A stretch of 45,846 nucleotides of DNA from Deltaproteobacteria bacterium (GTDB lineage: Bacteria; Desulfobacterota; Binatia; Binatales; Binataceae). The notes beneath the pieces were generated by a model. It had not been told where the DNA came from. It saw only the letters and a program-made list of their open reading frames with translations, and made no database searches. The DNA lies in contig JAJZAI010000025.1 of the NCBI GenBank assembly GCA_021799495.1, positions 1 through 45,846 on the forward strand. Direction: 5' to 3'. A program made the position numbers and the translations under genes. Positions within the stretch are counted from its first letter, which is position 1; each line of letters opens with the position of its first letter. Shown piece after piece: positions 2,595 through 31,675 of this stretch.

Positions 2595-3470
2595 ATGGCG
2601 TACCTGATGTTCATGGATGAAAGCGGGAGCGATCATCAGGAATCGCCGTATGAGGTGTTGGCGGGACTTGCCGTCGAAGACTGCTCGGCGTGGAGTCTTA
2701 TAAATGCAATTCAGAAAGCCGAGGGAGAACTATTCGATCGCCGCATAAGCGCTGGCGTGTCGGAACTCAAAGGCAAGGAACTTCTGAAGCGAAAGACGTT
2801 CCGATTAGCCGGCCAGATGCCGCCGATTGACGAAGCCGAACGCCGTCATCTGGCTGCGGCACTGTTCGATAGGAAAGCAGCGGTTACTAAAAAGCAATTG
2901 ACAGCGTTCGGACAAGCCAAGCTGGTTTTCGTGGGCCGCGTGCTTGAATTGTGCGCGCAGCATCAGGTTCGCGTTTTCGCTTCGATTGTTGACAGAGACG
3001 TTCCCCGTCCACCAGGAAAAGATTTTCTGCGCAAAGACTATTCATATCTGTTCGAGAGATTTTACTATTTCCTAACGGAACAGCATGGTGCTCCGCAGGG
3101 CCTCTTAATCTTCGACGAACTGGAAAAGAGCCGCAGTCGAATCTTGCTCGACCAAATCGGCAGATATTTTCAATACACCGCAAAGGGCCGGATCAGGGCT
3201 TCGAGAATCCTGCCCGAACCATTTTTCGTGCATAGCGATCTGACGAGCTTGGTCCAGATTGCGGATTTGATTGCCTACATCATTGTCTGGGGCGTCAGAT
3301 TCGGGCAAATGAACCGGCCAACGCGGCCGGAAATTGAACAATTTGCCGACGCGGTGATGGCTTTGCGTTACAAGGTTCAGGATCCGACCATCGCGGGATG
3401 GCAGGGCGTGTCTCCTCCGATATGGAGCTTGACGTTTATCGACGACCTGCGTCCAAGCGGCCAGAATTAA
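2595..3470 (+). CDS. DUF3800 domain protein
   Basis: The product (291 residues from ATG 2595) begins MAYLMFMDESG. This hydrophobic strand followed by D-E-S-G is the hallmark of DUF3800, a family with a predicted RNase-H-like fold. Later family blocks are visible: an FASIVDRD strand, YLFERFYYFL, GLLIFDELEKS, and the C-terminal HSDLTSLVQIADLIAY, in which a polar triad precedes Q-x-A-D-L. The function of DUF3800 is not established. Members are common in defence islands and on mobile elements, so a nuclease-like role is only inference. ATG 2595 is chosen because GAGG at 2581-2584 is well spaced. GTG 2586 is also in frame. Base composition is clearly more AT-rich than rpoD upstream, consistent with transfer. 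No partner gene is evident. Confidence 0.8.
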   Translation: MAYLMFMDESGSDHQESPYEVLAGLAVEDCSAWSLINAIQKAEGELFDRRISAGVSELKGKELLKRKTFRLAGQMPPIDEAERRHLAAALFDRKAAVTKKQLTAFGQAKLVFVGRVLELCAQHQVRVFASIVDRDVPRPPGKDFLRKDYSYLFERFYYFLTEQHGAPQGLLIFDELEKSRSRILLDQIGRYFQYTAKGRIRASRILPEPFFVHSDLTSLVQIADLIAYIIVWGVRFGQMNRPTRPEIEQFADAVMALRYKVQDPTIAGWQGVSPPIWSLTFIDDLRPSGQN

Positions 3471-3688
3471 AAAAGGCAATGCCCGACGTTGCCGTCGTTC
3501 AAAGCCTCCACCTCCAACATAAGCACATTCCGACGTCGAGTCAATCGGTCGTCTGTCAGCTAGCTGAATTACGCCCGTGGAAATAGCCTGTTGCCGGCGC
3601 TCGGCTGGATCGCTCGACGGCGCGCCGCTCCGCTGGACAATTCCGGCGAGCGCTTTAGGTTCATCGCCTCCCCGCTGGTGATTATCTG

Positions 3689-5083
3689 CTAACGGAAGAT
3701 CGCTTGCAGCACGACCGGAATCGATGGTTGTGCGGGATCGTCGGTTGCAATCATTAACGTTGCAGAGACAACCGAGTGCGAAGGATACGGCTGAGCAAGC
3801 GGGCTCGGCGGTGGGGCTGGCGGTTCAAGAGTCACTTCGACAATGTGCGTCTTGCCATGCGCCAGCGTGAACATTCCAGCAGTGCCTCCAGTTACACCAT
3901 AGGGTCCAGCCCCTCCGGGCACGTAGCCGTGCAGAACCGCCGTACCGAGATTGCGAATTCGTAGCTGCCGAGTTTGCCCGCGTTTGCTATTCGCCACTTC
4001 GAAGAAAAGTTGCTTCGGAACAACCTGTGCCTGTACTCCGGGCGTGGTATTGCCAATTCCTGAAAAATAGATGCGTGTAGGTGCGATAACGGCATTGTTC
4101 GCGATTTCTATGACGCCAGTGCGCTGCCCAACGCCGAGTGGCCTGAATGTAAGAATGATTGTGCAACTCCAGCCCGGAGTAAAAATTCCTCCACGAGCGC
4201 AATTATCGACCACCGGATAGAACTCGGGCGATGATGTTATCGAAAGGTAATTGATCGCATAGCTGAGCGTATTCGTAATAGTAAGTATTTGCGTCGCGCT
4301 TTCCGTTGCGATCGTCTGCGCGCCAAAATCAATTGAGGTCGCCGATGGCGTCAGCGCGGGCGGCAGCACCTCGATCGGCACGCTCATGCTCGGCCCGCCG
4401 CTCAACGTCGCCAACAGCGACGTTTTGCCCGGTGCGACCGCCGTGACCATCGCATTTGGCCCGACCGAAACGATCGACGGATCGGACGCCGTCAGCGCCA
4501 GATTTTGCGAGCCGGTCAGATTGACCAATCCGCCCGACGTGTTTCCCACGATCCTGAGCGGCAACTGTTCGCCGATCGCCTCGAAGACCATCGGCGGCGG
4601 AGGCGGCGTCAGGCTCAGCAGCGCGTTGGGCGGCAGCTCGATTTGAACGTACACCGGAGCGCTCGCAACCAGTTTATCGCGCAGTCCGCGCGCGACCGCG
4701 GTCAATTTGTATTGGCCGGGTTTGAGATTCGCCGGAATCACGATCGAGCCGCCAAAAACGGGAGGGCCTTTGCGGGGCAGAGGCGTTCCTAACGGCGACG
4801 CAAATGCGCGACGACGATGCAGGACCGCGCCGCCGAGGCCGCCATCGCCGAGCACTGCGATTCCCGGCCGCCTGGCGGCAAGGGCGTGAGTGGTCAGTAC
4901 GGTGAGTTGAATCGTCTGCCCGCTCTGAAAGACAGTCCCGGTCGTGGGCGTGACAATTTCGAGCTTTGGAGCTGGATCAGCCGCCAACGCGCGTGACGCG
5001 CCAGAGAGAAACGTCAGCACAAAGGCAAGCGCTGCAATGGTCGAGATTCGAGCTGAATTGTTCCGCATCCCCGCGCGCCTCAT
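3689..5083 (-). CDS. Secreted ASH/HYDIN-type (choice-of-anchor D) protein
   Basis: The 464-residue product has an N-terminal signal peptide (basic start, hydrophobic ALAFVLTFLSGA, A-L-A before the mature ADPAPKLEI). Next comes an Ig-like region with a Pro-rich stretch. A bacterial Ig-like segment follows (LTASDPSIVSVGPNAMVTAV). After that is an ASH/HYDIN-like module (SIDFGAQTIATESATQILTI, later CTIILTFRP) and a similar second copy (LFFEVANSKRGQTRQLRIRN). These beta-sandwich repeats usually mediate extracellular protein or carbohydrate contacts, so no enzymatic activity is inferred. The start at 5083 overlaps the upstream lipase stop in an ATGA arrangement. ATG 5068 has a better-spaced GAGG and is a serious alternative. 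The overlap implies co-translation with the lipase-like gene. Confidence 0.7.
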   Translation of the reverse strand: MRRAGMRNNSARISTIAALAFVLTFLSGASRALAADPAPKLEIVTPTTGTVFQSGQTIQLTVLTTHALAARRPGIAVLGDGGLGGAVLHRRRAFASPLGTPLPRKGPPVFGGSIVIPANLKPGQYKLTAVARGLRDKLVASAPVYVQIELPPNALLSLTPPPPPMVFEAIGEQLPLRIVGNTSGGLVNLTGSQNLALTASDPSIVSVGPNAMVTAVAPGKTSLLATLSGGPSMSVPIEVLPPALTPSATSIDFGAQTIATESATQILTITNTLSYAINYLSITSSPEFYPVVDNCARGGIFTPGWSCTIILTFRPLGVGQRTGVIEIANNAVIAPTRIYFSGIGNTTPGVQAQVVPKQLFFEVANSKRGQTRQLRIRNLGTAVLHGYVPGGAGPYGVTGGTAGMFTLAHGKTHIVEVTLEPPAPPPSPLAQPYPSHSVVSATLMIATDDPAQPSIPVVLQAIFR

Positions 5084-6794: not shown

Positions 6795-7916
6795 ATGGCC
6801 AACAGGGTGACTTCGAAACCGATAATTTCGGCGGATTCGCATGTGATGGAACCGCCGGACACTTATCTGCCGCGAATCGATAGCAAGTACCGCGAAACCG
6901 CGCCGCGGATGGTGTGGGACGACCGGCGCGGCGACACCGTCGTGATCGACGGAATGAAAGAGACCTTGCCGATCGGGCTGGTTGTCGCCGCGGGCAAAAC
7001 CGCAGAGGAGCTGGCCGGAGCGGCGGCGCGCGCCAAGTTCGACGAATTGCTGCGGGGCGGATGGGACCCCAAGGCGCGCATCGCCGATCAGGATCGTGAC
7101 GGCGTCGCCGGCGAGGTCATCTATCCCAGCGTCGGCATGATTCTGTGCAACCATCCCGACCCCGATTACAAAAAGGCCTGCTTCGACGCCTACAACCTCT
7201 GGATCGCTGAGTATTGCGCGCCGTCGCCGGCGCGGCTCATCGGATTGGGACAGACCGCGATGCGCACGCCGGAGGAGGGAATCCGCGACCTCGAAAAAAT
7301 CAAGTCGATGGGCCTGCGCGGCGTGATGATGCCCGGTTTTCCGGTGCAGGAGGATTACGACAGCGCGATTTACGACGATTTTTGGGAAGCGGCGATCGCG
7401 CTCAAGATGCCGCTCAGCTTTCATATCCTCACTTCGCGCGAGGGCGTGGCGAAACCGCCGCGCGGGCCGAAGATCAATTCGTTCATGTCGATCATCCGGG
7501 GCAACCAGGACATTATCGGCACGTTCATTTTCGGCGGCGTCTTCGAGCGCCATCCGAATTTAAAGATCGTTTGCGTCGAGGCCGACGCCGGCTGGGCGCC
7601 GCACTTCATGTACCGGATGGATCACGCCTACGATCGGCATCGCTTCTGGATGACCGGCGCGAAGCTGTCGCATCCGCCGAGCCATTACTTCAGCGAGAAC
7701 GTCTATATGACGTTCCAGGACGACTGGGTCGCGTTCCAGATGCGCGAGATGTGCAACATGCGCCGCCTGATGTGGGCGAACGACTATCCGCACAGCGATT
7801 CGACCTGGCCGCGCTCGCAGGAGCTGCTGGAGAAGCATACCGCCCGGATGCCGCAGGCCGAGCGCGACTGGGTATTGCACGACAACGTCGCGGAACTGTA
7901 CGGCCTCGCCTCCTGA
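6795..7916 (+). CDS. Amidohydrolase-family metal-dependent hydrolase (Amidohydro_2 type)
   Basis: This 373-residue TIM-barrel hydrolase begins ISADSHVMEPPDTY, where D-x-H with a following Glu gives the first metal ligands. Further ligand-bearing strands are visible: FHILTSREG, the central FGGVFERHPNLKIVCVEADAGW, and the C-terminal MWANDYPHSDSTWP with the catalytic Asp and following His. The family (ACMS decarboxylase-like, PF04909) includes decarboxylases and hydrolases of aromatic or cyclic acids. The exact substrate cannot be read from sequence. ATG 6795 is preceded by GGAAGGGAG at good spacing. The gene is single, divergent from the lipase pair and convergent with the restriction genes. 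Its codon use matches the core genes. Confidence 0.85.
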   Translation: MANRVTSKPIISADSHVMEPPDTYLPRIDSKYRETAPRMVWDDRRGDTVVIDGMKETLPIGLVVAAGKTAEELAGAAARAKFDELLRGGWDPKARIADQDRDGVAGEVIYPSVGMILCNHPDPDYKKACFDAYNLWIAEYCAPSPARLIGLGQTAMRTPEEGIRDLEKIKSMGLRGVMMPGFPVQEDYDSAIYDDFWEAAIALKMPLSFHILTSREGVAKPPRGPKINSFMSIIRGNQDIIGTFIFGGVFERHPNLKIVCVEADAGWAPHFMYRMDHAYDRHRFWMTGAKLSHPPSHYFSENVYMTFQDDWVAFQMREMCNMRRLMWANDYPHSDSTWPRSQELLEKHTARMPQAERDWVLHDNVAELYGLAS

Positions 7917-7924
7917 AGTGGACG

Positions 7925-7958
7925 GCTGGGTGCGCTCCGCATCGAGGGCGCACCCAGC
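7925..7958. terminator. Strong hairpin between convergent genes
   Basis: GCTGGGTGCGC (7925-7935) and GCGCACCCAGC (7948-7958) form a perfect 11-bp stem with a 12-nt loop. It lies 8 nt past the amidohydrolase stop and before the end of the oppositely oriented endonuclease gene. There is no T-tract on either side, so it is at best a bidirectional attenuator or a non-canonical terminator. Confidence 0.45.
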
Positions 7959-8003
7959 TGGTCTATCCGACAGGTCGTTAATATCTGGAATATGGCTGTG
8001 GCC

Positions 8004-8924
8004 TCAATGGTTTTTGCGGGTTTCGCTCAGCGTATCAATCAGCTCGCGCATAAGCGCCTCGACGCGCTCTGATTCCGACTCCCTAGCCGCCATCCGGCGG
8101 TCGAGCAAGGATCGAATCTTTTCCCATGCCTGATCAGCGTCACGGGAATCGGTGAATGTTTTGAAGAATGCTATCCAGTTCTTCGCGGCGATTCCGGCGA
8201 CAGGTTCTTCGATAGATCGAATAATGAATTGATCAAGCTCAGCGAGACCCAAGCGAGCGACCCGGCCGAAATTTCCGCCTTTGTCCGACTTTGGCTGATC
8301 ATTTATGCCGGATTTCGAATTTGGGTACGGATTCGCGTTTGCGGGTGGTTGAATTCCTGTATCCGTCTTTGCGTCGCGTATATGCCGCCACCAGTGATTG
8401 CGCGCCTCGGCGGCATATCGCGCGCTTTCGATGAAAGGAGGATGAATCATAGGTCGGCCGGAAAGAGCATTCTTGAGCCGCCACGGCACGATCACAAGCA
8501 AATCATTTTCAGCGCAAGCCGCTGGCGTTACTGTGTACCGAAACGACGGTTCGCTCTCCTTGGATAGCAAGTACCAACCTTTAAGCTCGATTCCGACCGC
8601 CGTTTCAATTTTTTCGCCCTTCCGTGCGACCAATCGAACGTCAGGGAACGATTGCGACCGACGCTCGAAGCGGTATTCAGTCCACTCTCCGTCAGGATCC
8701 CAGACCTTCCGAATCGCGTTTAGCGTTTCGACGACCTGATTTTCGATTGTCCCTCCAAGCGACGAATTCAACGCGAACAAATCGGCCGCATCGATGCCTT
8801 CGATGAAAGTTTCGGTCGTGAAATAAGCTGGCAATGCGCGAATCGCATCGCGCAACAGGAGGTCGAGCGCGGCTTTACGCTCGTCTTTGAGATTCGGACG
8901 AGTGGGGGATGGAGGTTTAGCCAA
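8004..8924 (-). CDS. Predicted type II restriction endonuclease (PD-(D/E)xK)
   Basis: This gene lies directly downstream of, and overlaps, a DNA methyltransferase gene. The 306-residue product has a PD-(D/E)xK-like nuclease core: Glu61 in an amphipathic helix, then F-P-D (Asp95) starting a strand, then G-I-E-L-K (Glu113, Lys115) about 18 residues later. The next segment has AENDLLVIVPWRL, like the strand after the catalytic motif in many restriction enzymes. No named endonuclease is recognised, so the role is inferred from motif plus context. The start is uncertain. TTG 8924 overlaps the methyltransferase stop by 8 nt and fits coupling, but the frame stays open further upstream to TTG 9089. 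The composition is more AT-rich than the flanking core genes. Confidence 0.6.
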   Translation of the reverse strand: MAKPPSPTRPNLKDERKAALDLLLRDAIRALPAYFTTETFIEGIDAADLFALNSSLGGTIENQVVETLNAIRKVWDPDGEWTEYRFERRSQSFPDVRLVARKGEKIETAVGIELKGWYLLSKESEPSFRYTVTPAACAENDLLVIVPWRLKNALSGRPMIHPPFIESARYAAEARNHWWRHIRDAKTDTGIQPPANANPYPNSKSGINDQPKSDKGGNFGRVARLGLAELDQFIIRSIEEPVAGIAAKNWIAFFKTFTDSRDADQAWEKIRSLLDRRMAARESESERVEALMRELIDTLSETRKNH

Positions 8925-10098
8925 CGCGAGATTCTCGTTGCCGTAATCGAACGGCCTCGGTAAGCCGCTTTCGCGCAATTTCAAAGAAAACGTCGTCGAT
9001 TTCCGCGGCGAACGGCCGTCTGCGCAACTCGATAGCTGCGACCGAACCGGTGCAAAGTCCGCCAAATGGCTCCCAAACGATGCCGTCAACTGTCGTCGAT
9101 GCGTAAATCATGCGCCGCATGAAGCTGAGCGGCTTCTGATTCAAGTGAACAGCGGAACCTTTCCCGGGACGATATACCCGTGGCGCAGATCTTCGATGAT
9201 TGCCCTTGAAACGTTCGTCGCCGTTCAGCGGCGGATGCGCCCAAACGTTGGTCACGGCATGTTGATGTTCCCACGGATGTCGCAGCGAGGCCCATTCTTG
9301 AGATGTGATCGGCGCCCTTCCATCACGTGAGAAGTACGGACGCCCCGAACGATCGCCGAATTCGTTTGCGTATTTTACGAGCTTTTCCATCATATCCGGA
9401 GGAGGAAAATACCATAGCCAATCCTGGGTCAAATATTTTCGTGTAGCGGCGTTTTTGACTCCACAAACCTCATTCGCTTTGTTGAGAGGAAGCCCGGCTC
9501 GGCGCCATTCGTAGCGCAACCATGTTCGTGCCGGCATCATCCCAAGAGGTGTCGCGAATTCAAGTCTGCGCCGATAGAATGCGCACAATTCAGTGACGAC
9601 AGGGAATTGGCGAATCGTGTCGCCATTTACGTTTCCCGCGATATGCTGTACGCCCTTGTCCCATATGATCGACTCGACATAATCCCAGCCGCTTTCGGTC
9701 AGCAACGAATGAACTATCGCCCAGCCTACCTCTGTATTCCAAAACCACAGGGTGGTCGCGGGCATCGCATTTTTAGACCATGCGCGAACATGAGGCCTGT
9801 ACCAATCGAGAATTTCTTCCGGGGTTCGCGGGTCGCCATGAAAACCGCCAACGCCATAGGCTCCGTCAGAAATTATCGTGCTCGGAGCGGGCCAGCTATC
9901 ATAAGCTTCAAGCGCATCGCCCCGATATAGCGTCCAATTTGACGCCGCTTTTGGCGGCCTTGCACCATTGTCTTTGGAAGGTTCGTCAACAGAAACTTCT
10001 CCGCGGTCGTGCTGCGACCGCAATCCGGCATAGCTCGGAGCAGCCAGTGTCAGTTTGAATTGTCGCTCGGCCTGAGCCACGCCGAAAAGTCCTCCCAA
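8917..10098 (-). CDS. Site-specific DNA methyltransferase (beta-class amino MTase) with atypical motif IV
   Basis: This is the modification partner of the adjacent predicted endonuclease. The motif order suits a beta-class N4-cytosine/N6-adenine methyltransferase. The catalytic region is N-terminal (about 74-90). Motif X (HLNQKPLSFMRRMI) precedes the C-terminal AdoMet motif I (VWEPFGGLCTGS), which is followed by FAAEID as the ribose-binding acidic strand. The catalytic position reads S-D-G-A-Y (77-81) instead of the usual D/S/N-P-P-Y/F. The frame opens at TTG 10098, and several later starts are possible (for example GTG near 10077). The first 50 residues are poorly constrained. It is more AT-rich than the neighbouring topA gene. 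The 142 nt upstream hold no gene and presumably carry the promoter. Confidence 0.75.
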   Translation of the reverse strand: MGGLFGVAQAERQFKLTLAAPSYAGLRSQHDRGEVSVDEPSKDNGARPPKAASNWTLYRGDALEAYDSWPAPSTIISDGAYGVGGFHGDPRTPEEILDWYRPHVRAWSKNAMPATTLWFWNTEVGWAIVHSLLTESGWDYVESIIWDKGVQHIAGNVNGDTIRQFPVVTELCAFYRRRLEFATPLGMMPARTWLRYEWRRAGLPLNKANEVCGVKNAATRKYLTQDWLWYFPPPDMMEKLVKYANEFGDRSGRPYFSRDGRAPITSQEWASLRHPWEHQHAVTNVWAHPPLNGDERFKGNHRRSAPRVYRPGKGSAVHLNQKPLSFMRRMIYASTTVDGIVWEPFGGLCTGSVAAIELRRRPFAAEIDDVFFEIARKRLTEAVRLRQRESRVG

Positions 10099-10241
10099 GA
10101 TAAGCAGCGTTCTAGCAGACGACCGGAAGGTGCGCCACGATAACGATTTAGTAAGCTCGTCTCGGCATACGCGACTTGATCAAAACCTGCGCCTTAATGG
10201 CATGACCAGCGAGAGCAAATGGCCACAATTGTCGCCCGCAA

Positions 10242-12596
10242 TTACGCTGGTGCGGGGGACGACGCCGCCGCGCCGGAACTTTCCGCCGGAGCTTCGGGGG
10301 CGGCGATCGCGTAGCCGCAATCCTTGTTCGGGCACTGCCAGCGGGTTCCTTCGCGCTTGGTGGTCTTCTCGACCAGGTAGCTCGAACCGCAATCAGGGCA
10401 GGGCTGCGCGATCACCTTGTCCCAGCTCGCGAACTTGCATTTCGGATAACGGCCGCATCCGTAGAACAGTTTGCCGCGGCGGCTGCGCCGTTCGAGGACT
10501 TCGCCCTCCTTGCAATCCGGACAGGCGACGCCGGTGCGCACCGGCTCGCTGCGCGTGCGCTTGATTCCGTCGCATTCCGGATAACCGGAGCATCCAAGGA
10601 ACTCGCCGAAACGCGAACGCCGGCGCACCATTGGCTTGCCGCATTTTTCGCAGGTCTCGTCGGTCGCCGCAGGCGCGCTCGCCGCGCGCGGCACGATCGC
10701 GATATTGCCCTGCTCGTCGCGCTTGAAATCCTGCGTGTTGGAGCACTCGGGATAGTTCGAGCAGGCCAGGAACTCGCCGTTGCGGCCCCACTTGATCACC
10801 ATCTCGCCGCCGTCGAGCTCGCACTTGAGGCCGGTCGGGATGCCCTTGCGCTTGACTTCGGGCATCTTCTTTTTCGCCTCGCCGAGGCGTTTCGCGAACG
10901 GCCCGTAAAATCGCTTGAGCGCCATGACCCAGTGCTCGCGCCCCTCCTCGACGCCGTCGAGCTCGTTTTCCATCTGCGCCGTGAAGCCGGCCTCGATAAT
11001 GTCCGGAAACGCGGCGACCAGCAGATCGGAGACGACGCGGCCGAGCGAGGTCGGTCGCAGCCGCTTGCTCTCGTCCTCCTCGACGTATTCGCGGTTCAGG
11101 ATGCTGGCCATGATCGCGGCATAGGTCGAAGGCCGGCCGATGCCTTTTTCTTCCAGCTCCTTGATCAGCGTGGCCTGGGTGAAACGCGGCGGCGGCTGGG
11201 TGAAATGCTGCTCGGGAACGAATTTCAGCAGCTTGAGGATTTCGCCTTCCGTCATCGCGGGCAGATTCGCCGCCTCGTCGTCCTCGGACGCTTCATCCTG
11301 CCCTTCGAGATAGACGCGCATGAAACCGTCGAACTTCATCGTTTGGCCGGTCGCGCGGAAGGTCGCGTTGGCCGCGTCGATATCGACGGTGGTGCGGTCA
11401 TACACGGCCGGATTCATCTGGCTCGAGACGAAGCGGTTGTAGATCAGCGTGTAGAGGGCGAGTTCGTCCTTGTCCAGGTAACGCGCAAGCGACTCGGGAT
11501 CGCGGGCGAGCGCGGTCGGGCGGATCGCCTCGTGAGCATCCTGCGCGGATTTGCCCGAGCGGTAGAAGTTGGGTTTTTCCGGCACGTAGTCGCGGCCGTA
11601 GCGCGCGCCGATATATTCGCGCACGCCGGCCAGCGCGTCGTCGGAAACGCGCGGCGAATCGGTGCGCATGTAAGTGATGAGGCCGACCGCGCCCTGATCG
11701 CCCAGTTCGATACCCTCGTACAGGCGCTGCGCCACGCGCATCGTGCGCGACGGCTGGAAGTAGAGCTTGCGCGACGCCTCCTGCTGCAGGCGCGAGGTGA
11801 TAAACGGCGGGGCCGGCGAGCGCCGGACCTCCTTGCGCTCGATCTTGCGAATCGTGAACGGAGCGGGTTTGCCGTTCGCTCCGCCCTCGCATTCGGCGAT
11901 AATCGCGCGCGCCTCGGCCTCGGTCAGCTTGCGCGCCTTGTTGTCGATCCGTTCGCCGCGATAGCTGAACAGCCGCGCGCGGAAAGGCGGCGGATTTTTC
12001 GCTTCAAGGTTGGCGTCGAGCGTCCAGTATTCCTCGGGCCGGAACGCCTCGCGCTCCTTTTCGCGCTCGACGATAATCCTGAGCGCCACCGATTGGACCC
12101 GGCCGGCGCTGAGTCCGCGCTTCACCTTGTCCCAGAGAATCGGGCTTACCTGATAGCCGACCAGCCGGTCGAGGACGCGGCGGGCTTGCTGCGCGTCGAA
12201 CAGATTGTGGTTGAGGTCGCTCGGACGCGCGATCGCGTCCTTGATCGCCCGTTCGGTGATTTCGTGCAGGAGCACGCGATGAACGCCGGCCTTGACCTTG
12301 CCGAGGCGGTCGGCGATATGCCATGCGATCGCCTCGCCCTCGCGATCGGGGTCGGTGGCGAGAAAGATATTTTCTTTGCCTTTGGCGGCGGCCTTGATGC
12401 CCTCGATTACCTTCGCTTTGCCGGCGATCACGTGATATTCGGGCTTGAAATCGTGCTCGATATCGACGCCCAGCTTGCTCTTGGGCAGATCGACGACATG
12501 ACCGACCGAAGGCGTCACCTGAAAGTCGGCGCCGAGATAGCGTTTGATGGTCTTCGCCTTGGCCGGCGATTCAACGATTATGAGATTTTTGGCCAC
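10242..12596 (-). CDS. topA: DNA topoisomerase I
   Basis: This type IA topoisomerase relaxes negative supercoils through a transient 5'-phosphotyrosine. The 784-residue product starts with the Toprim domain (LIIVESPAKAKTI, then acidic TDPDREGE at 81-88). It continues through the gate domains, with the active-site tyrosine in ITYMRTDS (Tyr309). The C-terminal third carries four zinc-ribbon units. The last three are plain C-x2-C...C types (CEKC, CPDC, CPDC). The first has only one Cys at its N-terminal knuckle (KCELDGG) and is probably degenerate. A short Ala/Pro-rich tail ends the protein. The start is GTG 12596, 42 nt after the dprA stop. The dprA-topA order is widespread in bacteria and indicates co-transcription. 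Confidence 0.97.
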   Translation of the reverse strand: MAKNLIIVESPAKAKTIKRYLGADFQVTPSVGHVVDLPKSKLGVDIEHDFKPEYHVIAGKAKVIEGIKAAAKGKENIFLATDPDREGEAIAWHIADRLGKVKAGVHRVLLHEITERAIKDAIARPSDLNHNLFDAQQARRVLDRLVGYQVSPILWDKVKRGLSAGRVQSVALRIIVEREKEREAFRPEEYWTLDANLEAKNPPPFRARLFSYRGERIDNKARKLTEAEARAIIAECEGGANGKPAPFTIRKIERKEVRRSPAPPFITSRLQQEASRKLYFQPSRTMRVAQRLYEGIELGDQGAVGLITYMRTDSPRVSDDALAGVREYIGARYGRDYVPEKPNFYRSGKSAQDAHEAIRPTALARDPESLARYLDKDELALYTLIYNRFVSSQMNPAVYDRTTVDIDAANATFRATGQTMKFDGFMRVYLEGQDEASEDDEAANLPAMTEGEILKLLKFVPEQHFTQPPPRFTQATLIKELEEKGIGRPSTYAAIMASILNREYVEEDESKRLRPTSLGRVVSDLLVAAFPDIIEAGFTAQMENELDGVEEGREHWVMALKRFYGPFAKRLGEAKKKMPEVKRKGIPTGLKCELDGGEMVIKWGRNGEFLACSNYPECSNTQDFKRDEQGNIAIVPRAASAPAATDETCEKCGKPMVRRRSRFGEFLGCSGYPECDGIKRTRSEPVRTGVACPDCKEGEVLERRSRRGKLFYGCGRYPKCKFASWDKVIAQPCPDCGSSYLVEKTTKREGTRWQCPNKDCGYAIAAPEAPAESSGAAASSPAPA

Positions 12597-28205: not shown

Positions 28206-28990
28206 CTATGGCTCGAACCGGAGATTCGAGACCGGCGTCCGGCGGCGTTCATGCGATCGTCGTGATGGCGAAGGCGCCGCTCGCGGGAGCGGTGAAAAGC
28301 CGGCTTGTACCACCGCTCAGCGCGGACGATGCGGCGGAGTTGAACCGATGTTTTTTACGCGATTTGAGCGCCACGATCGGGCGCGCGATCGCGATTTTCG
28401 CGTCTACGCATGGCGGTCGCGCCGCTGGGTTGATCGCCTATACGCCGGCTGGCGCGGAAAGCGCGTTTGACGGCGTAACGCCGCCGGCGTTCCGCTTGAT
28501 CGCGCAACGCGGCGAAAATCTGACCGCCCGTCTGATCGGGGTGTGCGAAGACCTGTTCGCCGCGGGTCACGCCTCGGTAACGCTGATGAATTCGGACAGT
28601 CCGACTTTGCCGGCGCGGATTCTCGTTTCCACGCTGACGGCGATGCATCGTCCCGGCGATCGCGTCGCGATTGGCGGCGCCGCCGACGGCGGCTACTGCC
28701 TGATCGGCCTGAAGCGGACGCATCGGCGGATCTTCGCGAATATCACCTGGAGTACGGCGCTGGTTTATCGCGAAACTCTCGATCGCGCGGCCGAGCTTGG
28801 TCTTGAAGCCGCGGAACTCGAACGCTGGTATGACGTTGACGACGCGGCGGCTTTGCGGCAACTCGAAGCGGAGCTTTTCGGCCATGGCGCGCGCGTGCGG
28901 CAGGGCGATCCGGCGCCCGCGACGCGCGCATACCTTGAATTTCTCCGGGCACAGCGGCCAGCGGGCGAATCCGAATCGATATTTGAATAA
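28202..28990 (+). CDS. DUF2064 / TIGR04282-type glycosyltransferase-like protein
   Basis: The 262-residue protein begins (after a short polar leader) with AIVVMAKAPLAGAVKSRLVP. This is the nucleotide-binding start of the DUF2064 GT-A-like family, a relative of nucleotidyltransferases such as CofC. MNSDSPTLPARIL (D-S-D-like metal/nucleotide site) and GGAADGGYCLIGLK follow. WSTALVYRET and WYDVDDAAALRQLEAEL complete the fold. Members include a proposed arsenosugar-synthesis transferase, but that role is not established here and no arsenic genes are near. The start GTG 28202 overlaps the frameshifted zinc-ribbon gene. ATG 28208 is an alternative. Confidence 0.82.
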   Translation: MTMARTGDSRPASGGVHAIVVMAKAPLAGAVKSRLVPPLSADDAAELNRCFLRDLSATIGRAIAIFASTHGGRAAGLIAYTPAGAESAFDGVTPPAFRLIAQRGENLTARLIGVCEDLFAAGHASVTLMNSDSPTLPARILVSTLTAMHRPGDRVAIGGAADGGYCLIGLKRTHRRIFANITWSTALVYRETLDRAAELGLEAAELERWYDVDDAAALRQLEAELFGHGARVRQGDPAPATRAYLEFLRAQRPAGESESIFE

Positions 28991-29014
28991 TCACTGTTGC
29001 GGACCGGCGATGCT

Positions 29015-29035
29015 CCGTGGCTGTCACAGCCACGG
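29015..29035. terminator. Hairpin between the DUF2064 gene and nadK
   Basis: CCGTGGCTG-TCA-CAGCCACGG forms a perfect 9-bp stem with a 3-nt loop, 25 nt past the DUF2064 stop. There is no T-tract after it, so termination is uncertain. Confidence 0.4.
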
Positions 29036-29089
29036 CTGGCTGGCGGATGCGTTGCCCGACAAAAGGGCGCATGATAGTTCCAAAGCGCC

Positions 29090-29962
29090 GTGGCGGAAAA
29101 GAAGTCCATTGAGTCGGTGGGTTTGGTGGTGCGGAATGATTATCCCGCCAATGCGATCGCGCTCGCGGCCCATCTGTGCGGATGGCTGCGCGCCGAAGGA
29201 TTGCACGCCCTGGCGAATCCCGAAACGGCGGCGCGGATCGGTGCCATCGCCGTTTCCGAAGCCGAATTGATGGCGCGCGCCGAGTTGATGGTTGTCATGG
29301 GCGGCGACGGCACGCTGCTCGGCGTCGCGCGCCATATATGTCAGCGCGCGGTGCCGATTCTCGGAGTCAACCTTGGCGGCCTCGGCTTTCTGACCGAGGC
29401 GACGACCGACGAAGCGATGGCGACGCTTGCGCGCGTGATCGGCGGCGATTACGAGGTCGATCGGCGCATCATGCTGGAAGCGGAGGTCGAACGCGTTGGC
29501 GGCGGCCCCGAGTGCCGGATGACCTTTTTGGCGCTCAACGACGTCGTTATCGTCAAGCGGCCGGTTGGGCGGATGCTTACGGTGGAAATCAATGCGGATC
29601 ACATGCCGTTCTGCACCTATCGCGCGGACGGACTGATCGTGGCGACGCCCACCGGTTCCACCGCCTATGCTTTGAGCGCGGGCGGGCCGATCGTGTATCC
29701 GAATCTTGGAGTGATCGTGCTGGCGCCGATCTGTCCGCATACGTTGAGCAATCGGCCGGTCGTGTTGCCCGACAGTTTCGAGCTCGAAGCGCGGGTCAAT
29801 GTTGACGATAAGGGCGCGATTTTGACCTGCGACGGCCAGGAGTCGGCGCCGCTCACGTCCAACGACATTGTCCGCGTGCGGCGCGGCAAATACTCGGTCG
29901 CGCTGATTCGTTCGACCCATCCGTATTTCGAAATCTGGCGCGACAAGTTGCGCTGGGGGTGA
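29090..29962 (+). CDS. nadK: NAD kinase
   Basis: NadK phosphorylates NAD to NADP using ATP or polyphosphate. The 290-residue product shows the family hallmarks: VVMGGDGTLLGVARH (catalytic Asp73 in G-G-D-G-T), PILGVNLGGLGFLTEA, and FLALNDVVIVK with the N-D pair. YRADGLIVATPTGSTAYALSAGGPIVYPN and LAPICPHTLSNRPVV follow. The start is GTG 29090. recN begins 15 nt downstream, a pairing seen in many bacteria, so the two are co-transcribed. Confidence 0.96.
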   Translation: MAEKKSIESVGLVVRNDYPANAIALAAHLCGWLRAEGLHALANPETAARIGAIAVSEAELMARAELMVVMGGDGTLLGVARHICQRAVPILGVNLGGLGFLTEATTDEAMATLARVIGGDYEVDRRIMLEAEVERVGGGPECRMTFLALNDVVIVKRPVGRMLTVEINADHMPFCTYRADGLIVATPTGSTAYALSAGGPIVYPNLGVIVLAPICPHTLSNRPVVLPDSFELEARVNVDDKGAILTCDGQESAPLTSNDIVRVRRGKYSVALIRSTHPYFEIWRDKLRWG

Positions 29963-29977
29963 CGCGCGGAGCGGGGG

Positions 29978-31675
29978 ATGCTGGCGCAATTGCGCATCCG
30001 CAACTTCGCCGTGGTCGAGTCCGCGGAATTGTCTTTCGGTCCCGGCCTCAACGTGCTGACGGGGGAAACCGGCGCCGGCAAGACCATCGTGATGACCGCT
30101 TTGGGCCTCCTGCTGGGCGAACGGGCGGCGCCCGAGATGGTGCGCGCGGGCGCGAAAGAGGCGGTCGTCGAAGCGGTCTTCGAGCTTGAGGGCGAGACGG
30201 CGGCGGCGGATGCGGCCGATTTTATCGATCCGGAAAATCCGCGCGAGCTGATTATTCGCCGCGTCATCGCGGACGGCGGGCGATCGCGGCTCACGATCAA
30301 CGATTCGCCTGCAACGGTCGGCGCATTGGCGCGAATCGGAGCCGCCCTCGTTCAGATCTACGGCCAGCACGAACAGCAATCGCTGTTGCAGCGCGAAAGC
30401 CATCTGCGCATCCTCGATCGCCACGGCGGCCTCGACGCGGAACTGAATCAATACGGCTCCGCATACGAACACGCGCGCGCGCTCCGCGGCCGGCTCGATG
30501 AGATCGAGCGGCGCGAACGCAACCGCGCTGAATTGCTCGACGTGGCGCGCTTTCGAGCCGCGGAACTCGAGCGCGCGGCGCTCGAGGCCGGTGAAGACGA
30601 AAAGCTCGCCGCCGAGCGGACGGTGCTCGCCAATGCCGCGCGCCTTGCCGAGGCCGCGGCGTCGGCGGAACAGGCGTTGTATGGCGGCGAGGGCGCGGCC
30701 GTGGATGCGATCGCACTCAGCGAAGACCGTCTTTCCGGCGCCGCGGCGATCGATCCTGAATTGCGCGTGACGCTCGAATTAATCGCCGCCGCCCGCGCGA
30801 ATCTGGAAGAAGCCGCCCGTGCGCTTGCCGCATATTCCACCCGAATTGAGGCCGATCCCGCCCGTCTCGAGCAGATCGACAACCGGCTGCAGGAATTGAT
30901 GCGGCTGAAGCGCAAATACGGCGGCTCGATCGAGTCGGCGCTGGACGCCCTCGATCGCGCGCGCCGCGAAATCGCCGAACTCGAGGCGGGAAAACAGAAC
31001 CGCGCCGCGCTTGCCGCCGAGCTTGCGCACGCGATCGAGGACCTTGCGAATCGCGCGAACGATTTATCGGAGCGTCGCAAGCGCGCCGCCGCGGAATTGA
31101 AACGAAGGATTGAAGCCGAGTTGCGGACGCTCGGAATGCGCAACGCCGTCTTCGACGTCCGCTTTACGCGAATCCCGGCGGATGGCGCTGAATTTTCAAA
31201 CCCCGGCGGCGCGTTTGGGCCGGCGGGCCACGACGCGGTGGATTTTCTGATCGCGCCCAACCTTGGACAGCCGCCGTTGCCGCTCGCGCGTTTCGCGTCG
31301 GGCGGAGAACTGTCGCGCGTGATGCTTGCGATCAAGCGCGTCGAGGCGCAGCGGCGCGGCGTCGCCACCATGATTTTCGACGAGGTTGACGCCGGAATCG
31401 GCGGCGCGGTCGGCGAAGTGGTCGGCCGCAAGCTCAAGGAACTCTCGCGTTTCCATCAGGTGCTCTGCGTGACCCATCTGGCGCAAATCGCGGCCTTCGC
31501 CGACGAGCATTTCGTGGTCGAAAAAGAGGAGCGGCGCGGCGTCACGCGCAGCCGCGTTGCGGCCCTTCAGACCGGCGGGCGCGCCGGAGAAATCTCCCGG
31601 ATGATCGGCGGCAGCGCCGACAACGAAAAATTCCTGCGCGCCGCCCGCGAGTTGATCGACCGCGCCCGCGCCTGA
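29978..31675 (+). CDS. recN: DNA repair protein RecN
   Basis: This SMC-like ATPase acts in double-strand-break repair. The 565-residue product has the N-terminal head with Walker A (NVLTGETGAGKTIVM, about 29-43). A Q-loop-like segment lies in IYGQHEQQSLL. A long Ala/Glu/Arg-rich coiled coil spans about 150-390. The C-terminal head has the ABC signature FASGGELSRVMLAIK, Walker B MIFDEVDAGIGG and VTHLAQIAAFADEH. Length is normal. ATG 29978 follows GGGGG closely after nadK. Confidence 0.96.
   Translation: MLAQLRIRNFAVVESAELSFGPGLNVLTGETGAGKTIVMTALGLLLGERAAPEMVRAGAKEAVVEAVFELEGETAAADAADFIDPENPRELIIRRVIADGGRSRLTINDSPATVGALARIGAALVQIYGQHEQQSLLQRESHLRILDRHGGLDAELNQYGSAYEHARALRGRLDEIERRERNRAELLDVARFRAAELERAALEAGEDEKLAAERTVLANAARLAEAAASAEQALYGGEGAAVDAIALSEDRLSGAAAIDPELRVTLELIAAARANLEEAARALAAYSTRIEADPARLEQIDNRLQELMRLKRKYGGSIESALDALDRARREIAELEAGKQNRAALAAELAHAIEDLANRANDLSERRKRAAAELKRRIEAELRTLGMRNAVFDVRFTRIPADGAEFSNPGGAFGPAGHDAVDFLIAPNLGQPPLPLARFASGGELSRVMLAIKRVEAQRRGVATMIFDEVDAGIGGAVGEVVGRKLKELSRFHQVLCVTHLAQIAAFADEHFVVEKEERRGVTRSRVAALQTGGRAGEISRMIGGSADNEKFLRAARELIDRARA

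Follow-up and report, generated by a model that had tools for sequence, protein, structure and literature searches.

The gene M of the 45,846-nucleotide stretch of DNA analysed here (hereafter, the window) and its neighbour R probably form a mobile Type II restriction-modification (R-M) system; the pair resides in a low-GC insert that is absent from the nearest relative (Table 1). M belongs to a subfamily of DNA amino-methyltransferases with DG[AP]Y at the position of catalytic motif IV and is probably the active modification enzyme of this small system, with the N6 atom of adenine as the most likely target and a recognition site that would be shared with R. The R gene, which is not mentioned in the original prediction, best explains the purpose of M. 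What is new here is the DG[AP]Y methylase subfamily together with an unannotated endonuclease family, in an otherwise known type of Type II R-M system.

Table 1. Coordinates of the R-M pair, its motifs and the adjacent genes in the window
Feature	Position	Strand	Basis
M, DNA amino-methyltransferase, DG[AP]Y subfamily	8917..10098	-	ORF, Pfam match, homologues
GGGAGG, candidate Shine-Dalgarno sequence for GTG 10080	10091..10096	-	sequence
M motif IV, residues 77-81, S-D-G-A-Y	9856..9870	-	D78, G79, Y81 invariant, 92 rows
M motif X, residues 318-323, H-L-N-Q-K-P	9130..9147	-	H318, Q321, K322, P323 invariant, 92 rows
M motif I, residues 342-347, W-E-P-F-G-G	9058..9075	-	W342, P344, F345 invariant, 92 rows
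R, companion Type II restriction endonuclease, 306 aa	8004..8924	-	TTG start, 8-nt overlap with M stop (8917-8924)
R catalytic Pro94-Asp95	8640..8645	-	alignment
R catalytic Glu113-Leu-Lys115 (PD-x17-ELK)	8580..8588	-	alignment
Insert with the R-M pair	7917..10241	.	54.6% GC vs 63.0% in the window; 88 bp in G011
Flanking gene, presumably DNA topoisomerase I-like by sequence	10242..12596	-	83-97% identical in six same-genus genomes
Other flanking gene, presumably amidohydrolase-like by sequence	6795..7916	+	ORF

Motif IV of the methyltransferase and its relatives

The M reading frame, as translated from the TTG at 10098, encodes 393 amino acids, and this reading is used for all residue numbers. 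The GTG at 10080, six codons past the TTG, would yield a protein of 387 amino acids and appears to be the likelier start because GGGAGG lies 10 nt upstream. A Pfam search with M identifies a single match, to N6_N4_Mtase (PF01555; E 1.8e-13, 51.4 bits against a cut-off of 26.7), and the NCBIfam CcrM profile NF050803 scores 39.2 bits, far below its equivalog cut-off of 830. The motifs follow the beta-class order IV - TRD - X - I (residues 77-81, 318-323 and 342-347, with WEPFGGLCTG at 342-351), and the AlphaFold2 model (pLDDT 82.8, pTM 0.83) adopts the beta-class fold, the top matches being CcrM (6pbd, Z 24.9, 223 residues aligned, 2.8 A), M.BceJIV (9c3u, Z 24.9, 214 aligned, 2.2 A) and MboIIA (Z 24.2). 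The beta-class arrangement that was originally predicted is thus borne out by both motif order and fold.

A phmmer search aligns SDGAYG of M with ADPPYG of M.BceJIV, an enzyme of solved structure (8urk), which places SDGAY at the position of motif IV; in the model, the strand formed by residues 74-77 runs straight into this motif. Pro-Pro pairs are found elsewhere in M only at 48, 232-234 and 289, none of them in a [DNS]PP[YFWH] setting, so that, as the original prediction had it, SDGAY indeed stands in place of the x-P-P-Y/F motif. Compared with the beta-class motif (D/N/S)PP(Y/F/W), the outer residues Asp and Tyr are kept and the Pro-Pro alone is exchanged, for Gly-Ala; likewise, IISDGAY departs at both prolines from the PROSITE N6-adenine pattern [LIVMAC]-[LIVFYWA]-{DYP}-[DN]-P-P-[FYW], as quoted in a passage of PMC3814359. 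Because both prolines are replaced whereas the first and last residues are retained, we assign M to a variant subfamily that would work like the beta class. CcrM (6pbd) and M.BceJIV (9c3u, 8urk) share with M the motif order, the H-x-x-Q-K-P signature of motif X and the Asp and Tyr of motif IV, but they carry DPPY where M has DGAY (for the CcrM motif, see the relevant part of PMC6787082) and D-P-F-x-G in motif I where M has W-E-P-F-G-G; identity to M over the aligned parts is 21% for CcrM and 26% for M.BceJIV. The same genome encompasses three other weakly matching loci, two of which (L002 and L004) have DPPY and the third (L003) no motif detected by the filter used.

Relatives of M were collected from genome contigs of 84,980 species (the best 80 of 96 relatives were used), from IMG/VR (8 loci in one scan and 36 in another, overlapping), from plasmids (20 matching records, 10 of them at a coverage of at least 80%) and phages (6 records, 4 of them at a coverage of at least 80%), and from one genome each of the family and phylum of the window. 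The scan peptides excluded motif IV and were taken from conserved regions, so that distant sisters may escape. In the alignment of 92 sequences, namely, the window protein and 91 relatives selected as near full-length, motif IV reads DGAY in 62, DGPY in 28 and DGGY in 2. The invariance of D78, G79 and Y81 across this alignment indicates that SDGAY results neither from chance nor from an assembly error, and the conservation of D-G-x-Y in 92 of 92 sequences agrees with the original view of M as a member of a divergent subfamily. In a larger set (136 loci examined, 135 matched at E 1e-20, 126 non-identical), motif IV is readable in 122 of the 126 non-identical loci and is always DG[APG]Y; the search expression presupposed D and Y, and the unbiased basis for the invariance of these two residues is the 92-row alignment. 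No motif IV is seen in the other four loci, three of which (L014, L065 and L074) match only downstream of the motif, whereas L015 is broken. The latter, at positions 3001-3806 of the Clavibacter capsici plasmid pCM2_1207, is a broken M copy that is absent from the gene table and retains the fragment SDGTYG.

The family is widely scattered and apparently uncharacterised. By record title, the hosts include Acidimicrobiia, Eremiobacterota, Pseudomonadota, Bifidobacterium, Clostridia and Planctomycetota, and the nearest relatives among the best 80 of 96 are 74% (L016) and 71% (L017) identical to M. A quick tree calculated after removal of motif IV, which came with long-branch warnings, requires four changes of the third motif letter, suggesting that this letter changes rarely. 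Four viral DGPY methylases that lack a partner (L099-L102) form a single clade with full support on this tree and are perhaps phage-borne solitary methylases. A search of 395 genomes of the phylum at E 1e-25 detects only the window's own gene and a locus of G363 (L148), which is included among the loci examined for motif and partner, and no sister family with DPPY by which the change could be dated. Among the matches listed from the open-access papers searched, most of them judged by title, none links DGAY or DGPY to a methyltransferase. NruI and Sbo13I were considered as characterised relatives, NruI on account of its origin in a Nocardia and of the description of its methylase as an odd group; these enzymes have DPPY, 267 amino acids and a gamma-like motif order (in the relevant part of PMC2890505), and belong to another family.

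The predicted companion endonuclease

The open reading frame of R spans 8004-9089 and is open into M; the TTG at 8924 overlaps the M stop codon (8917-8919), and the R homologues annotated in seven plasmid or phage records are 306-321 amino acids long. In an alignment of 49 sequences, for which near full-length copies were selected, E61, P94, D95, E113 and K115 are identical in all rows. A search of the Pfam and NCBIfam profiles with R yields no match, and sequence and profile searches up to E 1 identify no solved endonuclease. The predicted structure (pLDDT 89.0, pTM 0.85) is closest to SwaI (5tgx, Z 7.9, 154 aligned, 4.3 A), HincII (Z 5.8), NlaIV (Z 5.7) and EcoRV (Z 5.5); the best Z of 7.9 falls under the value of 8 that the comparison tool gives as its bar for trust, the best Foldseek match has an E of 0.012, and 46 of the 50 fold matches listed are nucleases by title, mostly EcoRV and HincII entries. 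Thus, R looks like an endonuclease of the PD-(D/E)XK superfamily with a predicted fold similar to those of EcoRV, HincII and SwaI. A fold of this kind would suggest that R leaves blunt ends, as these three enzymes do.

The PADLOC profile REase_II PDLC03583 matches R in the catalytic core only (30.8 bits), in contrast to the divergent partners of the M relatives L063 and L014, which it covers nearly full length (155.6 and 155 bits, respectively). R and the divergent, convergently transcribed partner are distant homologues, with about 27-31% identity over the core. The profile match suggests that existing catalogues of Type II enzymes already include relatives of R; the profile itself carries no readable specificity. 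In 10 of 10 plasmid records and in phage Xavia, the R homologue is annotated as 'hypothetical protein'.

Pairing was counted over 111 non-identical M loci with at least 1200 nt of downstream sequence. R of the window type lies downstream in the same direction at 63 of these loci, in 53 of the 63 as a single-piece match over at least 230 of the 306 R residues; it lies downstream but reversed at one locus and upstream and reversed at another. A divergent R homologue is located downstream in convergent orientation at 24 loci, so that R or its divergent homologue accompanies M at 89 of the 111. No endonuclease homologue was found at the other 22, and some members of the M family may act alone; in several cases, the reading frame of the R copy is truncated or broken up. 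Conversely, all six viral contigs with R also appear in the M scan, and 9 of the 10 plasmid records with R also carry M. In the tenth, Rossellomorea CP128836.1, the R match is split into two parts, as expected of a remnant, and the gene listing up to 4 kb away includes no M.

The arrangement in the window combines two hallmarks of a Type II R-M system: adjacent methylase and nuclease genes, which here overlap by 8 nt, and an intact nuclease site, the PD-x17-ELK that R shares with every one of the 49 aligned rows, alongside a modest fold Z. With Type II systems whose PD-(D/E)XK endonucleases adopt the EcoRV/HincII/SwaI type of fold, the pair has in common the adjacent, overlapping M and R genes, an R with PD-x17-ELK and a predicted fold of this type, and a mobile, patchy distribution. 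The system described here differs from these in that its methylase lacks DPPY and in that R matches no solved endonuclease up to E 1.

An active Type II endonuclease would be lethal without a protecting methylase. Given that R with an intact site is maintained alongside, M is very probably active. It is highly improbable that M is instead catalytically dead or weak, either a retained DNA-binding protein or a decaying gene, a view for which one could invoke the absence of the two prolines from a catalytic motif that is otherwise nearly universal and the 22 of 111 loci where no partner endonuclease was found. Against it stand the conservation, in members from different phyla, of the catalytic D and Y and of motifs X and I, the intact catalytic residues of the companion R, and the fact that the sole plasmid record with R and no M match, that from Rossellomorea, contains the two-piece, remnant-like R.

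The inserted segment and mobile carriers of its relatives

The M-R segment looks like a recent insert. It occupies 2325 bp between two flanking genes that in G011, the closest genome of the same genus, are separated by only 88 bp. G013 has about 660 bp at the corresponding place and no M match at E 1e-30; in the remaining stretches taken from the genus, the two flanking genes were not both visible. Of 1741 segments of equal size, a single one has a GC content as low as that of the insert, and it overlaps the insert itself. M is present in 2 of 41 genomes of the family and in 2 of 395 genomes of the phylum, the window's own genome being counted in both. No convincing repeats were found at the ends of the insert.

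Several of the relatives reside on plasmids or in phages. The acne-associated Cutibacterium plasmid pTZC1 (NZ_AP026711.1), which carries tet(W) and erm(50), encodes a collinear relative of the M-R pair at 28717-30721 (L106), whose R is labelled 'hypothetical protein'. The pair may contribute to the stability of this plasmid. In the Mycobacterium phage Xavia (L013 and L104), which encodes an integrase and a repressor, genes 30 and 31 are M and an unannotated R, located between the lysis genes and the integrase, and phage Tortellini has a similar M. The Aeromonas veronii plasmid pAV7K (L014) shows an M match at the very start of the record (1-1919) that is missing from the gene table, which omits genes spanning the record start; in this plasmid, the gene of the convergent endonuclease follows and overlaps one for a helix-turn-helix protein, likely a controller protein of the R-M system, an arrangement known for R-M controller genes.

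Catalysis, target base and recognition site

In the CcrM-DNA complex, according to the relevant part of PMC6787082, the carboxylate of Asp31 and the main-chain carbonyl of Pro32 hold N6 of the flipped adenine, the main-chain NH of Tyr34 contacts N1, Lys193 contacts N7, and the adenine is sandwiched between Tyr34 and Thr191. The authors of the RlmJ study give the same base-contact roles for DNA m6A enzymes (in a passage of PMC3814359), and Asn416 and Lys418 in motif X of EcoP15I contact adenine (PMC4490356, in the part concerned). M keeps D78, Y81, N320 and K322, and a backbone carbonyl is available at G79, so that the chemistry can run without the prolines. The original suggestion that the loss of the prolines points to an unusual base or site is therefore not supported, because the CcrM-contact residues D78, Y81 and K322 are present and G79 retains the carbonyl. 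Some effect of losing both prolines is possible: the CcrM authors note that the two rigid prolines shape the adenine pocket (PMC6787082, same part), and in M the cost would probably be one of stiffness. The predicted model is silent on whether DGAY holds the base correctly.

Under the preferred scheme, M would bind AdoMet via motifs X and I, and the target base would be flipped into a pocket formed by D78-G79-A80-Y81, N320 and K322, where a single methyl group would be transferred to an exocyclic amine, with N6 of adenine as the likeliest acceptor. G79 would substitute for the first proline, still offering its backbone carbonyl; A80, a proline in other members of the family, would be a tolerated spacer; and D78 and Y81 would serve chemistry and stacking. 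R would then cut the same site when it is unmethylated.

For the product of M, m6A is a better guess than m4C. The same R-M system with N4-methylcytosine as the product is unlikely, even if neither motif IV nor the fold readily separates the two bases. The rule that Asp indicates m6A is unsafe because M.NruI and M.Sbo13I, which are 49% identical and both carry DPPY, are assigned m6A and m4C, respectively (in the relevant part of PMC2890505), and the M model fits the m4C enzymes (8s9m, Z 21.9; PvuII, Z 21.1) as well as the m6A enzymes HpyAVI (Z 21.9) and RsrI (Z 20.9). What argues against m4C is that motif IV of M begins with Asp rather than Ser, that N-x-K in its motif X corresponds to the adenine contacts Asn416 and Lys418 of EcoP15I (PMC4490356, as above), that M keeps the lysine with which CcrM contacts adenine N7 (PMC6787082, as above), and that the three top fold matches, CcrM, M.BceJIV and MboIIA, are adenine enzymes by title or name.

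A more radical consequence of the DGxY motif would be a backbone loosened at the first proline such that the same amine is methylated a second time. In the rRNA dimethylases KsgA and Erm, the first proline gives way to a small hydrophobic residue, and the resulting backbone change lets the monomethylated base rebind; these enzymes, however, retain the second proline, have Leu, Ile or Val rather than Gly at the first position and act on RNA (in a passage of PMC3814359). In the M family, the first proline is replaced by Gly in 92 of 92 aligned sequences, and there is only a very slight chance that this invariant Gly yields, for example, N6,N6-dimethyladenine or N4,N4-dimethylcytosine. Dimethylation of DNA is not known from any R-M enzyme, nor, to our knowledge, does a dimethylated protective DNA mark occur in any other R-M system. 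If it were true nonetheless, the M-R pair would protect its host by a DNA mark new among R-M systems. Monomethylation, most likely at N6 of adenine, is the reading that we retain.

To look for traces of the recognition site, palindromes of 4 and 6 bases, as well as interrupted ones of the 3+3 type, were screened for avoidance in 359,334 bases of the own genome (the window and 20 further stretches) and in seven replicons with a relative of the system (Xavia, pSD10, pTZC1, pRWAY04, a Cupriavidus plasmid, PLAsvaD and pGCWB2; 50,000 of the 50,709 bases of pSD10 and 100,000 of the 105,060 bases of pGCWB2 were used). No site is depleted throughout this sample, in which every genome or replicon carries the system or a relative of it. 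CAGCTG is very rare in the own genome (8 seen against 75.6 expected) and in PLAsvaD (0 against 18.9) and reduced in pTZC1 (5 against 15.3) but is outside the nine most depleted sites listed for Xavia, pSD10, pRWAY04, the Cupriavidus plasmid and pGCWB2. GTCGAC is also low in the 359,334 bases of the own genome (50 seen, 175.6 expected), and the depletion of both sites there is perhaps a trace of other R-M systems. A system that seems to have been inserted only recently would in any case be expected to leave little avoidance.

The textbook way of recognising amino-methyltransferases is by the two prolines of motif IV, and the family described here suggests that the standard two-proline pattern misses some of these enzymes. 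The first proline is always absent and the second mostly so in a widespread family, which suggests that the essentials of the motif may be the Asp, a backbone carbonyl and the Tyr. R, in turn, points to an unrecognised family of restriction enzymes carried by plasmids and phages.
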